This document shows, piece after piece, positions 23,130 to 27,761 of a stretch of DNA of 64,000 nucleotides. The notes beneath the pieces are model-generated. The model made no database searches and was not told the DNA's origin. It worked only from the letters and a program-made list of their open reading frames with translations. Source of the DNA: Priestia megaterium NBRC 15308 = ATCC 14581 (GTDB lineage Bacteria > Bacillota > Bacilli > Bacillales > Bacillaceae_H). Where the stretch lies: contig NZ_CP009921.1 of NCBI RefSeq assembly GCF_000832985.1, positions 186,001 to 250,000 of the forward strand, in the 5' to 3' direction. The translations under genes were made by a program, and so were the position numbers. Position 1 is the first letter of the stretch, and every line of letters starts with the position of its first letter.

Positions 23130-23555
23130 TTAGTTGTTTTTTAACTTGTAGCCTTTAAACGTATATCCATAAATCTTAGTGAGATCAATAAAGCTCTTAT
23201 AGGAATACGTAATCGCAACCGGTGTACCAATCTGAACTTTCTCGTAAAGCTTCTCCACATCTTTATTATGCATTCTAACACATCCGTGACTCACGTATTT
23301 TCCGATGCTACTTTCATTGTTATTACCGTGAATGGCATAGGTATTGCCATTTGTACGATTTACATCTAGTCCTAACCAACGTTTTCCTAAGGGATTGCGA
23401 GGGTCTCCCCCAGGAATATGTCCTGTATAATAAGGCCGATTTTTAATCTTGTTCACGATTTTAAAGATGCCCACAGGTGTTTTCTCCCATGTTTTACCCG
23501 TAGCCACTGGATTAATAACTTCTATATAGCCATTGTGAAAATAAGCAAGTTTGTT
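23130..23555 (-). pseudogene. C-terminal (catalytic) part of an L,D-transpeptidase, split by a Tn554-like element
   Basis: The frame is open from about 23555 and reads NKLAYFHNGYIEVINPVATG, then the YkuD catalytic region with AIHGNN and SIGKYVSHGCVRMHNKD (nucleophile Cys, partner His). YkuD enzymes cross-link peptidoglycan and need an N-terminal signal or LysM part, which is missing here. That part is found at 27615-27761, ending NQDFIIINKHYNLN, on the far side of the transposon. A GTG at 23507 could start a 125-residue cytoplasmic fragment, but it would not be exported and lacks the first strands of the domain. Confidence 0.8.
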
Positions 23556-23597
23556 GTATTATATTTAGGTTAGACAAGTAAAACTGTTGAAAATAAA

Positions 23598-23637
23598 AAG
23601 CCCTCACATTTTAGATATGTCTAATATGTGAGGGCTT
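23598..23637 (-). terminator. Terminator after tnpC
   Basis: AAGCCCTCACAT and ATGTGAGGGCTT pair on both strands around a 16-base loop, five bases past the tnpC stop; it also lies about 45 bases from the inferred element end. Confidence 0.8.
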
Positions 23638-23641
23638 AACT

Positions 23642-24037
23642 TTATAACTTTGTAAAGTAATCGGTGAGCTTTTCATTTTCTTTTTGGCGCAACTCTCTAT
23701 TTTCTTTTTCTAATTGTTGATTTTTTTTCTCTAACTTTTCAATTCTTCTTTTGAGGGAAGAGATGACCGCGTTCTGATTATTTTCATCCCGTTTAATTCT
23801 ATCATCCACAAATGCTTTTTCTTGTTGATTTCGCAAGAAATCAATGCGCTCTTTGAGTTCTATATGATTGTATAGGGTAGCTTTCGCTACACCTGCTTCT
23901 TTTGCCACACTATTAAAGTTTATTGCTTTAGAACTCTTTATAAGACGTTTAATAGCCTCCTCAACTTTATCTTTAGTTGCTTGTTTTCGCTGTTTATGTA
24001 GTTGCCGTAGTTGCTCCTCACGTTCAAAATTAGCCAT
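23642..24037 (-). CDS. tnpC: TnpC-like transposition accessory protein (DUF6262 type)
   Basis: A 131-residue protein with an N-terminal helix-turn-helix-like stretch (NFNSVAKEAGVAKATLYNH) and a long C-terminal coiled coil (about 75-125; ISSLKRRIEKLEKKNQQLE). This is the layout of Tn554 TnpC, which influences orientation and frequency of transposition. The start at 24037 (AGAAAGGTG upstream) is preferred over GTG at 24046. The gene overlaps the end of the broken tnpB. Confidence 0.75.
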   Translation of the reverse strand: MANFEREEQLRQLHKQRKQATKDKVEEAIKRLIKSSKAINFNSVAKEAGVAKATLYNHIELKERIDFLRNQQEKAFVDDRIKRDENNQNAVISSLKRRIEKLEKKNQQLEKENRELRQKENEKLTDYFTKL

Positions 24038-26162
24038 GTTTAACACCTTTCTTCTGTTTTCTTTCTAACTGTTTCTTCACACGTTCAAATTTTCCAAAAA
24101 TTACATTCCCACCCTTGATTGTTTCATAAATGCTCTGGTATCTCTCCAAGTTTTTTTCATTAGCTTTGACCATATCTTCGCGACCATATTTTTTGGAGGC
24201 TTCAATCCACTTTGTAGTGGTTTCTATTAGAAGTTCATACTTTTTAACGTCAAAACTCGTCATACCTACAGCTAAATCAAAACAAGGCTTTCCATCGTTG
24301 GCTGTGAGACAAGGAGGTTCTGCTGCTAATGGGCAGTTTCCTTTCACTCTAGCACGACAAGTTCCGTAGGGGTTGTCCAAAGCGTTTAGCTTTTCATCTT
24401 TCCACATCATATCTAGAATGTCTTCAGGGATATCTTCTGTTTCAGATACTTGATGAATTTCCCCATTTAGGTTAAAGGAAAATACACCTTGCTTAACCAC
24501 CTTTTCAAACGCTTCCGTTTTGTATCGTCCAATAAACGGGCGTATCGCAGGGTCATTTCAGGCGAGGCATGAGCTAGTAATTCCTGGACGGTTAAAATGT
24601 CAGCGCCACCATTCAACATCTTGACCGCATATGTATGTCGAAATTGGTGTGATTTGAAATGGAATACATTGCCCACTTCGTCAGTAATGTTCTTTCGAAA
24701 GCTAGTTTTCCAAGTTGATCTCGTACCCAAAACTGGGAAAATGGTTTTCCCTTACGGGAACCTTTGTACCGAACGAAGATGTATTTATTAGGGTTGTTAT
24801 CATCGTTACTGAGTTCCTTGGATTTATGGATTAAAACGGCAATCATATTTGCTAATTGGTCGTCAATCGGGATTTTATGACCATTCACATATATTTTTTC
24901 AATATCGGTTTGAATAGAATATTTGCCATTTAACCGAACCAAACACTCCTGTGTTAATCCTAATGTATCGCTGATACGCAATCCAGTTTTAAAAGCAATC
25001 CACACGACAGGTTGTACATCTGAATGAAGGTCGTTTATATTGTCAAATAATTGCTCTAATACATAGTCAGGAATGTAATCAATAGTATCATCTGATTTCT
25101 TATCAAGAGAAGGATAATCCTCAGAGTAAAGTAACTTTGTAGTTGATTTCTTAGGTGCAATACTGTAATCGTAACGCTGGGTATCTCTTAAAAATGAATA
25201 AGTGCACTCCACGTTTATATATATAAATTTATCCGGGTTGGCATTTCTATTCTTTAAGTTATTTTGGGCATAATGATGAAGAAACTCTACATACTTTTCT
25301 ATATGCTGTCTTGTAAGATCTTTTAAATCATCCCATTCAGGTTCTAATTCATTAATAAAATTAAAGAACTTGGGAACCCATCTCACATAATTTTGAGCAG
25401 TTGACCAAGAAAATTTCCTGCCACCTAGTAATCTAGTTTTAATATATTTTTTTAAATATTGTCTAAAAGTAACATTTTCAATTTTTGTGAAATCAATATA
25501 ATAAAGTGGTAGTGAGGCGTTGTAATCTACTCCATAATTGGCATTTAACACCCTAACATCCCATCTATCTTTTCCCCATTCCTCACGGGTATCGGTTAGA
25601 TTAAATAATTTCTCATATATGGAACGGAAGAAAGTCGCTATTGGTGTTTTAGTCTCAAATTCACCATACTGCACACTTTTTCTTGCTAGGGTTGTTTTTA
25701 CACCTTTGTTGTTCAACCACCAAATCCACTCTTTCTCAGTTTTCTCAACGTCCAAATCAAGGAGAGAATAGAGGTGAGAATGTTTTCGTTAAGAAATAAA
25801 ACTAATTTGTTTAGGAATGTTTTGTAAGTATGAAAAAAGCTGTTTAAACTCCATTCATCGTTAAACAACTTACAATAATAAACAAATTTAAGTTCTAAGC
25901 CAATAGTTTTGTTTTCGGTTGGAAACTTTTGATTCCTACTAGGAACTTTGTATCTGTTGAAGCTTTCCTCAAAGTTAGGGATGTTACCAATATCATTTAC
26001 ATTCCAAATATCATTGACTAAAAAGTAATCATTATTCACGACTCTCCTTGTTACTTTTCCATCAGGAGATATATCCTTAACCTCGTAAGAGGAGAGAGTA
26101 GATGTGATTAAGTTCCAATATTCATTTTTTGTAATTGCATTGTTTGCTATGATTTTATCCAA
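24030..26162 (-). pseudogene. tnpB: TnpB of the Tn554-like element, broken by three frameshifts
   Basis: Four overlapping frames join into one protein of about 700 residues. The N-part (26162-25713) continues after a shift near 25755 into EKEWIWWLNNKGVKTTLARK. A second shift near 24695 (ERT to NITDEVGN) leads to the tyrosine-recombinase motif HQFRHTYAVKML and LLAHASPEMTLRYARL, and a third near 24515 leads to the cysteine-rich C-terminus (CRARVKGNCPLAAEPPC). All recognisable integrase residues survive, so the damage may be recent. The shift near 24695 looks like loss of one A in a short A-run. Confidence 0.8.
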
Positions 26163-26192
26163 TAAATTGCCTCCTAAAATTCTAACTAGCTT

Positions 26193-27362
26193 CTAAAAAG
26201 GAACTGCTTCGTCAGGGATATTTGATTGAAAGTCTTCCATGTTTTCTTGCCCAATCTCAAATGCATGGGCGGCTTTCTCCCAATCCTTTCGGATTTCATC
26301 CTCAGAGGGGTGAATGTATAGGTTCATCGTGGTTTGAATTTGGGCGTGACCTAAACGTTCTTGTACCAGCTTGATATTTTTGGTTTGAAGATAATAAATT
26401 GTAGCATGAGTGTGTCGAAACATATGCGGGGTAATATGTATACCTGTTTTTCTTTCAAGCTCTTTAAAGGTCGCATAGACATCGGAGTAGGTGAGGGGGT
26501 CTCCAGCATTCTTTCCCCAAATCTTCACAAACACAAAATTATGGTCCGGGTTATATTCATCAACCACTTCGTACAAATAATCGTCGTATAGGTTCATGAG
26601 ACCCTGAGAGATGTCTAATTTTCGCTCTCCAGTCTTCAATTTACCTCCGTTTGGCAATTCACCTCTATTGGTCAGTTGGATTTTGTGCTTTCTTTGTTTA
26701 GCATCGAATTGAAGATCTTCAAGAAACAGGGAGAGAACCTCTCCGATACGCAATCCACTTTCAAAAAGCAACCGCACAAGAAATTTATCTCTTATATTTG
26801 TAGTAGAATAATAGATTTCTTCGACTTGTTCTTTCGTAAATACTTGGACGCGTTTCCTGGGTTCCTTCAGCTTTAGAATATTTTTAGAGATAGGTTTCCC
26901 TCCATTTACATGGTGTAAGAAACCCTTGTACCCATTCCCACCAGCACCAATGAACATCTTCTTCATAAGCTTTTCAACCATGTCTGAGTCCACTAAATCA
27001 TTTCTGTATAAGTAATCATAAAATGATGCCACGACCGTAAGGTAATTGTTTACTGTGCTTTCCCTGCGTTTAGCTTTTACTGTTTTATGGAGTACAACGT
27101 TATTGTTTTCATAGGGATTTCTAAGCCAAACAACGAAGTTAGATAACTTTTCAAAGCTCACCTGTTGATAATCAATTCCTGTTTGCTCCAAGTATGTAAA
27201 GTAAAATTTCAAAGCCGTACAGTACGTCTGTAAAGTATTACTGCTCCTCTCACTGTTGTATAGGTATTTCATATACTTTGCAACAGGTTCAACAGGTAAT
27301 CCACTTGTACCAATTAGAAGATATGCCTTTCTATTACCAACAGATATTTCTTCTACTCTCAT
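26193..27362 (-). CDS. tnpA: TnpA tyrosine recombinase of the Tn554-like element
   Basis: A 389-residue site-specific recombinase. The N-terminal SAM-like core-binding domain spans about 20-130. The catalytic set is complete: Arg in LLFESGLRIGEVL, HMFRHTHATIYY with His and Arg, GHAQIQTTMNLYIHP with the final His and the nucleophile Tyr. Tn554 TnpA acts with TnpB in site-specific transposition. The start at 27362 follows GGGAGGCGTTTTC; an in-frame start 15 bases earlier is possible. It ends 30 bases before tnpB. Confidence 0.85.
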   Translation of the reverse strand: MRVEEISVGNRKAYLLIGTSGLPVEPVAKYMKYLYNSERSSNTLQTYCTALKFYFTYLEQTGIDYQQVSFEKLSNFVVWLRNPYENNNVVLHKTVKAKRRESTVNNYLTVVASFYDYLYRNDLVDSDMVEKLMKKMFIGAGGNGYKGFLHHVNGGKPISKNILKLKEPRKRVQVFTKEQVEEIYYSTTNIRDKFLVRLLFESGLRIGEVLSLFLEDLQFDAKQRKHKIQLTNRGELPNGGKLKTGERKLDISQGLMNLYDDYLYEVVDEYNPDHNFVFVKIWGKNAGDPLTYSDVYATFKELERKTGIHITPHMFRHTHATIYYLQTKNIKLVQERLGHAQIQTTMNLYIHPSEDEIRKDWEKAAHAFEIGQENMEDFQSNIPDEAVPF

Positions 27363-27416
27363 GAAAACGCCTCCCACATAATGTTATCTAGTTATCGTTA
27401 TTTCTTTAAGATCCTC

Positions 27417-27456
27417 GAACCTAACGGTTCTGCGGAGTGCTGTCCTCGCACCGAGG
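27417..27456 (-). promoter_or_regulatory. Structured leader upstream of tnpA
   Basis: Two small hairpins, GAACC-GTTA-GGTTC and CCTCG-GTG-CGAGG on the minus strand, lie 55-95 bases before tnpA in an unusually GC-rich patch for this DNA. They could control tnpA translation or belong to the transposon end; function inferred only from structure. Confidence 0.4.
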
Positions 27457-27567
27457 CTTTGTCCTCCACTTAAAACCAAACTAACACTCTTATCTACAAT
27501 CACATTTTATACATATTAAACTATTATTTCAATATTCATTTTTCTAATCTATTATGTAAATAAAAAA

Positions 27568-27600
27568 GGATAGTTAGACCACATAGCAGACTAACTATCC
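27568..27600 (-). terminator. Hairpin near the right end of the Tn554-like element
   Basis: GGATAGTTAG and CTAACTATCC pair around a 13-base loop, with a T-run on the minus strand. It would stop transcription entering from the truncated L,D-transpeptidase and shield tnpA. Confidence 0.7.
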
Positions 27601-27614
27601 TATGAATTATTACC

Positions 27615-27761
27615 TTAATTTAAGTTATAATGCTTATTAATAATGATGAAGTCTTGATTAACAGTTTTACTGGCTGCTTCTGTTTTCCCCACTGAAACCA
27701 CACATAGGGTTATCATTAGTAATGTAAAAATAGTGATTAATTTAATAAATAGATTCTTCAT
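27615..27761 (-). pseudogene. N-terminal part (signal peptide) of the split L,D-transpeptidase
   Basis: An ATG with AGAGGAGTG upstream starts MKNLFIKLITIFTLLMITLC, a clear signal peptide with a likely cleavage after KTEAA, then SKTVNQDFIIINKHYNLN and a stop. FIIINK-x-x-N followed by LAYFHNG is the expected start of a YkuD domain, and LAYFHNG is exactly what appears at 23530-23550. The stop codon belongs to the inserted element. As it stands it encodes a 48-residue secreted peptide. Confidence 0.75.

Follow-up and report, generated by a model that had tools for sequence, protein, structure and literature searches.

A Tn554-family element with a recurrent target site in L,D-transpeptidase genes of Priestia megaterium

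The window analysed here is the whole 64,000-nucleotide stretch between positions 186001 and 250000 of a 301,264-bp plasmid contig of Priestia megaterium NBRC 15308 = ATCC 14581, the genome of which comprises 5.75 Mb in 7 contigs. On the minus strand of the window, tnpA, tnpB, and tnpC separate a frame with an apparent signal peptide, which starts with the ATG at 27761, from a YkuD catalytic frame ending at 23130. An earlier note on this DNA had read the arrangement as an L,D-transpeptidase gene split by a Tn554-type transposon. Our analysis confirmed that reading, with both halves and the three tnp genes found where they had been placed; the exact borders are given in Table 1. The gene is broken after codon 46, within the YkuD match, which starts at residue 37. 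The N-terminal frame continues into the element (..HYN-LN-stop, with the stop at 27617-27615).

Table 1. Features of the split L,D-transpeptidase gene and of the inserted element (window coordinates)
Feature	Coordinates	Strand	Evidence and remarks
N-terminal half of L,D-transpeptidase gene, 46 codons, apparent signal peptide	27624..27761	-	100% vs intact P. flexa gene, 138 aligned bases; signal peptide assigned by eye
Left 6-bp core TATAAC (native target core)	27624..27629	-	same bases in intact alleles L010, L012, L013
Tn554-family element	23559..27623	-	4065 bp here; 4068 bp in four other copies/assemblies compared
Hairpin and T run just inside left end, terminator-like	27567..27601	-	fold z -4.79
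Conserved leader before tnpA, two predicted hairpins	27390..27480	-	alignment A2, 12 elements
tnpA, tyrosine recombinase	26193..27362	-	PF00589 E 6.6e-30, on identical NBRC copy
tnpB, long tyrosine recombinase, 711 aa in NBRC record	24030..26162	-	PF00589 E 7.4e-22, on NBRC copy
tnpC (DUF6262)	23642..24037	-	PF19776 E 1.2e-13, on NBRC copy
Hairpin and T run just inside right end, terminator-like	23598..23637	-	fold z -7.78
Right 6-bp core TACAAC (footprint, unlike native core)	23553..23558	-	junction comparison with intact alleles
C-terminal catalytic half of L,D-transpeptidase gene	23130..23552	-	PF03734 E 1.5e-24, model positions 13-146 of 146; computed on a stretch 3 bases longer at the 5' side

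The uninterrupted gene was found in a matching neighborhood on all four plasmids fetched, which had been chosen as looking uninterrupted: those of P. flexa KLBMP 4941 (NZ_CP016791) and P. megaterium CDC 2008724129, and pNCT2_1 and pNCT2_2 of strain NCT-2. In each of them the intact gene has 561 bp, or 186 codons, rather than the roughly 170 codons that the earlier note had expected of the joined frame. A toprim-domain gene and a restriction-endonuclease gene precede it, as on the plasmid of the window; on the P. flexa plasmid these two are separated by a reverse-transcriptase gene and another, small gene. An L,D-transpeptidase gene beside toprim and restriction-endonuclease genes recurs across many Priestia plasmids. 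The P. flexa protein matches PF03734 (YkuD) with an E value of 3.6e-26 over residues 37-160. Because each half of the window gene matches the P. flexa allele at 100% (138 + 426 aligned bases), the empty site is known exactly, and the uninterrupted plasmid alleles define the new target site, as the earlier note had proposed they would. The right core lies outside the 138- and 426-base comparison and is one base off the P. flexa allele.

At the empty site the sequence reads ..AATAAGCAT-TATAAC-AAACTTGC.., at the left junction ..AATAAGCAT-TATAAC followed by the element start TTAAATTAAGG.., and at the right junction the element end ..CTAAATATAA is followed by TACAAC-AAACTTGC... Comparison of four insertions and the intact alleles revealed no target duplication beyond the 6-bp core. 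An inverted repeat seen by eye around the target core of the window allele was rejected as a feature of the site, being absent from the other alleles aligned.

A protein search at E 1e-30 returned 87 plasmid records (86 from Priestia and 1 from Paenibacillus), of which 65 matched 80% or more of the query at a single place. Among the 60 plasmid rows listed, 56 begin at or before residue 26, and the other 4 (H134-H137), which begin at residue 45, are records carrying the window insertion, i.e. the split gene. No intact homologue starting after the junction, the kind of gene that the earlier note held to be contrary to a split, was seen among these rows. Without the N-terminal leader the catalytic half is unlikely to give an exported enzyme. 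We infer that the element inactivates its host gene, because the catalytic half is deprived of the apparent export signal and the element has a terminator-like hairpin inside each end.

A 246-base probe from the left end of the element detected three places in the genome: one in the window, another elsewhere on this contig (copy 2), and one on the chromosome (the largest contig). Each of the three copies interrupts a YkuD gene, and codon and orientation are the same every time. Strain CDC 2008724142 provided a further insertion, on pPmC-142-2, with junctions unlike those of any of the three genome copies; pPmC-142-1 of the same strain has the junctions of the window, both plasmids having been compared at the junctions. 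Hence the distinct insertions (4/4) share one YkuD gene family, one codon, and one orientation. Alignment of five copies or assemblies of the element showed one substitution, in copy 2 of this assembly, and three gaps of one base each, all in the window copy, with no other difference, whereas the host-gene halves diverge among the three genome copies by 16-31% (N-terminal) and 21-24% (C-terminal). The insertions are separate events, since the elements are near-identical while the host-gene halves have diverged. With four distinct insertions at the same codon and the gene intact in all four related plasmids, chance coincidence is excluded. The YkuD motif looks like the regular target of the element and not the site of one odd insertion, because the three genome copies and the CDC 2008724142 insertion all sit at the same codon.

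Each insertion has a 6-bp TAYAAY core at both junctions, and in all four the right core is unlike the left one (left/right: window, TATAAC/TACAAC; copy 2, TATAAC/TATAAT; chromosome, TACAAC/TATAAC; pPmC-142-2, TACAAT/TATAAC). Matching left-core donors for the right cores exist among the copies seen for three of the four insertions. In two papers on SEs (a class of integrative elements) and Tn554-related elements, the left core of the donor is reported at the new right end (PMC10214605, PMC12486829). TnpA and TnpB, helped by TnpC, would recombine the 6-bp core via a circular intermediate, which would leave the native core at the left end of the element and the left core of the donor at its right end. 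Read in this manner, the cores could imply the order unseen TATAAT donor, copy 2, chromosomal copy, window copy; a TATAAT donor for copy 2 is not among the copies of this genome. The element may move between plasmids and the chromosome, because its target recurs on several replicons of one cell.

From these comparisons of sequence, the element is very probably a cargo-free, site-specific transposon of the Tn554 family whose target is the conserved coding motif I-N-K-x-Y-N / K-L-A-Y-F (break at the slash), with core TAYAAY, in an L,D-transpeptidase gene family. Several points weigh against this account. The footprint reading depends on two positions that vary, and cores identical to these are present in other Priestia genes, TATAAT in one of them (L055). 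The element is found at 99% identity or more in records of ATCC 14581 and CDC 2008724142 only (7 records), so that few events have been sampled. Besides the insertion, the chromosomal host gene contains an internal stop and a frameshift, and it could have been a remnant before the element arrived. Finally, a consensus terminator scan listed neither of the two end hairpins.

The practically identical element copies, and the fact that the host genes are paralogues, would also fit one ancestral insertion that was duplicated together with its host gene, gene conversion having kept the elements identical while the flanks diverged. We consider this very improbable: the P. flexa allele, 100% identical to the window halves, carries no insertion, and so the gene lineage was uninterrupted until recently; moreover, the right cores differ among the copies. 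A shade less probable again is relaxed specificity, in which AT-rich sequence in general would serve the element and the shared site would reflect sampling. The short, AT-rich core and the quite different sites used by the relatives (below) are in keeping with it, but it does not explain why every distinct insertion (four of four) lies at one codon and in one orientation in one gene family, nor why the left-end probe detected only the three copies in the genome. An assembly artefact, in which halves were wrongly joined through the repeated element, is scarcely credible despite that repetition and the disagreement of the type-strain assemblies on one 301-kb or two smaller plasmids, since three more records of the species (H1, H2, and H3) have the full 5.6-kb arrangement at 99.9% and the P. 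flexa gene shows that both halves belong together. Under the favored reading, insertion at a regular target motif, the element provides a fully mapped new Tn554-family target in the type strain of a harmless laboratory species; the empty site is exactly known, the events are several and separate, and the footprints can be read.

The YkuD target-gene family is common on Priestia plasmids and is also present on large, probably chromosomal, Priestia contigs. A survey of 43 loci yielded 36 target sites (from 35 genes, L003 and L071 being the same), 12 of them with a TAYAAY core. Genes with this core are at least 68% identical to the target protein, and some genes in that range lack it (e.g. L053). 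A YkuD search of the genome listed 11 matches, comprising the 3 split genes, 1 C-terminal fragment in a chimeric remnant, and 7 others. Four of these seven (L001, L002, L003, and L007) gave a site, none of them TAYAAY; L004 and L008 gave no site, and one was left out of the survey. At a chromosomal locus (L079, G000:C6:4719000-4723500), pieces of a toprim protein and of an L,D-transpeptidase are fused in one frame, apparently as decayed plasmid DNA.

No gene beyond tnpABC was found in the element. Its ends, TTAAATTAAGGTAA and TTATATTTAGGTTA (the second reverse-complemented), form imperfect inverted repeats as judged by eye. The hairpins inside the ends would stop transcripts entering or leaving the element. 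The tnpB gene of the window copy has three one-base gaps that shift its frame; in the five-way alignment the remaining four copies or assemblies are free of them. These gaps and the substitution in copy 2 are likely to be sequencing errors, because they are absent from two further records, that of NBRC for the window copy and that of ATCC 14581 pPmT-2 for copy 2. The leader before tnpA is shared, at the matching place, with L031, L036-L042, L044, L046, and L047, and its pattern was not seen in the more distant L030 and L032-L035. Its covariation is weak, with 1 of 15 predicted pairs changing on both sides and a slightly positive covariation term (0.17), and the single-sequence fold has a z of only -1.85. 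No Rfam family was found for the leader; the single Rfam match of the region, below the gathering score and to a snoRNA family outside the element, was rejected as an identity for it.

A 5.6-kb query spanning the split gene and the element matched 65 plasmid records, all from Priestia. The best match was H1 (NBRC 15308 = ATCC 14581), with the whole query covered at 99.9%. The type-strain records disagree on plasmid content, giving either a single 301,273-bp plasmid (NZ_CP035095) or two of ∼157.5 and 143.7 kb (NZ_CP069289/90 and NZ_CP120604/06), and the two smaller plasmids sum to the size of the single one. Window positions 39001-64000 correspond to two matching pieces over ∼32 kb in NZ_CP035095 and to one 25-kb piece in NZ_CP069289 and NZ_CP120604, which indicates that the assemblies differ by an insertion or a rearrangement. 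The idea that the two plasmids fused via their copies of the element was considered and rejected: the copies have opposite orientation on the 301-kb contig, and simple recombination is no explanation.

A scan of species genomes revealed 13 loci with relatives of TnpA (L036-L048), 66-85% identical in 12 of them, the other being the decayed remnant L048. These relatives, from Bacillota, have the left end and the leader in common with the element. None of the 13 loci, and none of 12 further ones (25 in all), contained a YkuD homologue at E 1e-3, several of them having short flanks or ending at the element. Six relatives (L039-L043 and L045; probably also L044) interrupt genes of the DNA/RNA non-specific endonuclease type, at two places in the gene family. 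Pfam Endonuclea_NS_2 scored above the cut-off in the target genes of all five relatives tested, and L043 was classed by its matching translation. The right junction is recognizable in L039. In L036-L038 the left junction is not crossed by any long open frame, and in L047 only by frames of 62 and 65 residues. Four identical copies of a distant Tn554-like element (L110-L113) are present in one genome and have GC-rich 6-bp cores, e.g. GGGCCA and TGGCCC. A 123-base "OXA-60-like" prediction in PLSDB, at L030:4560-4682 on a P. megaterium plasmid, is much too short and probably spurious.

The TnpB comparison covered seven distinct proteins with assigned targets. L043 was dropped, its TnpB being identical to that of L041, and L044 was classed by a 10-base flank, of which 9 bases match L040 and L045, together with the likeness of its TnpB. 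Residues 51-350 are 81-97% identical in the 7 same-target pairs versus 43-66% in the 14 different-target pairs; for residues 351-711 the corresponding values are 88-94% and 76-87%. The divergence ratio of the first region over the second is 0.34-2.22 in same-target and 2.15-3.29 in different-target pairs, ranges that touch, and omission of L044 leaves four same-target ratios of 1.25, 1.34, 1.64, and 2.22. Seven pairs involving relatives with unnamed targets have ratios of 1.88-2.52. Neither TnpA nor TnpC has a block of target-linked divergence like that in TnpB 51-350. Two SAM-like Pfam models match within TnpB 245-304, both below the cut-off, and no solved chain matched TnpB before residue 387 at E 0.01. 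In a more distant group, L033 and L034, which by eye both appear to sit in a DNA-ligase-like gene, were compared with L030 and L035; the trend is the same at residues 201-350 (50-56% versus 21-46%) and hardly present at 51-200 (36-48% versus 26-46%).

These values leave some room for a tentative model, rather less likely to be right than wrong, in which TnpB residues ∼51-350, before and including the core-binding domain, might act as a target-selection module, so that new targets, such as the YkuD motif and the two endonuclease sites, would be gained when this region is exchanged or diversifies, with conservation of TnpA, of TnpC, and of the catalytic part of TnpB. Target class coincides with clade in the comparison, and ancestry is a confounder that weighs against the model. 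The comparison of TnpB across targets is nevertheless a more novel lead than the new target itself. In the element and its relatives, closely related recombinases that differ in target form a natural series, and through it Tn554-type site choice becomes testable.

Among known systems, the element has the hallmarks of the Tn554 family, namely two tyrosine recombinases (PF00589 in TnpA and TnpB, TnpB being long), a small TnpC (DUF6262), and site- and orientation-specific insertion. It does not have the three adjacent tyrosine recombinases of RIT elements, TnpC being a DUF6262 protein with no integrase match. According to PMC10214605, SEs resemble it in having two tyrosine recombinases, one of them large; their 6-bp footprint is carried from the left side of the donor to the new right side, as the cores of the element may suggest here. 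SEs differ in being known from Gammaproteobacteria and in having a Tfp gene between the recombinases; in place of the SE gene set IntA-Tfp-IntB-Srap, the element has three genes only, with none between its two recombinases. The open-licence literature, judged by listings and by parts of the sources, contained no report of a Tn554-family insertion in a transpeptidase gene; it yielded nothing on Tn554 in Priestia and, on the target specificity of Tn554 TnpB, only the SE paper PMC10214605.

Tn554, Tn558, Tn559, Tn5406, and Tn6188 share with the element the tnpA-tnpB-tnpC order, 6-bp junction sequences, and a conserved coding motif as target, as described in PMC3788773 and PMC10214605. The target gene differs: all copies found here sit in YkuD genes, whereas Tn554 and its relatives of this type use radC (att554). 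We treat the radC target as usual for the Tn554 family but not as defining, because Tn552-II differs too. That element, beside which Tn553 may be placed, is reported to have Tn554-like tnpABC genes and to use a target outside radC, namely a yolD-like gene in which the core has 7 bp; a core from the donor arrives at its right end (PMC12486829). It carries a resistance operon and a gene like its target gene, neither of which is present here. The earlier note had called the insertion unusual for Tn554; with Tn552-II in a yolD-like gene and six relatives in endonuclease-type genes, a target other than radC is less unusual than claimed. Compared with Tn554 and its radC-targeting relatives, the element further lacks resistance genes or other cargo and is present in several copies on different replicons of one cell. 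A landing site in a gene family found on several replicons of one cell would help the element to spread between them. The element is of a known kind; its recurrent target is new.

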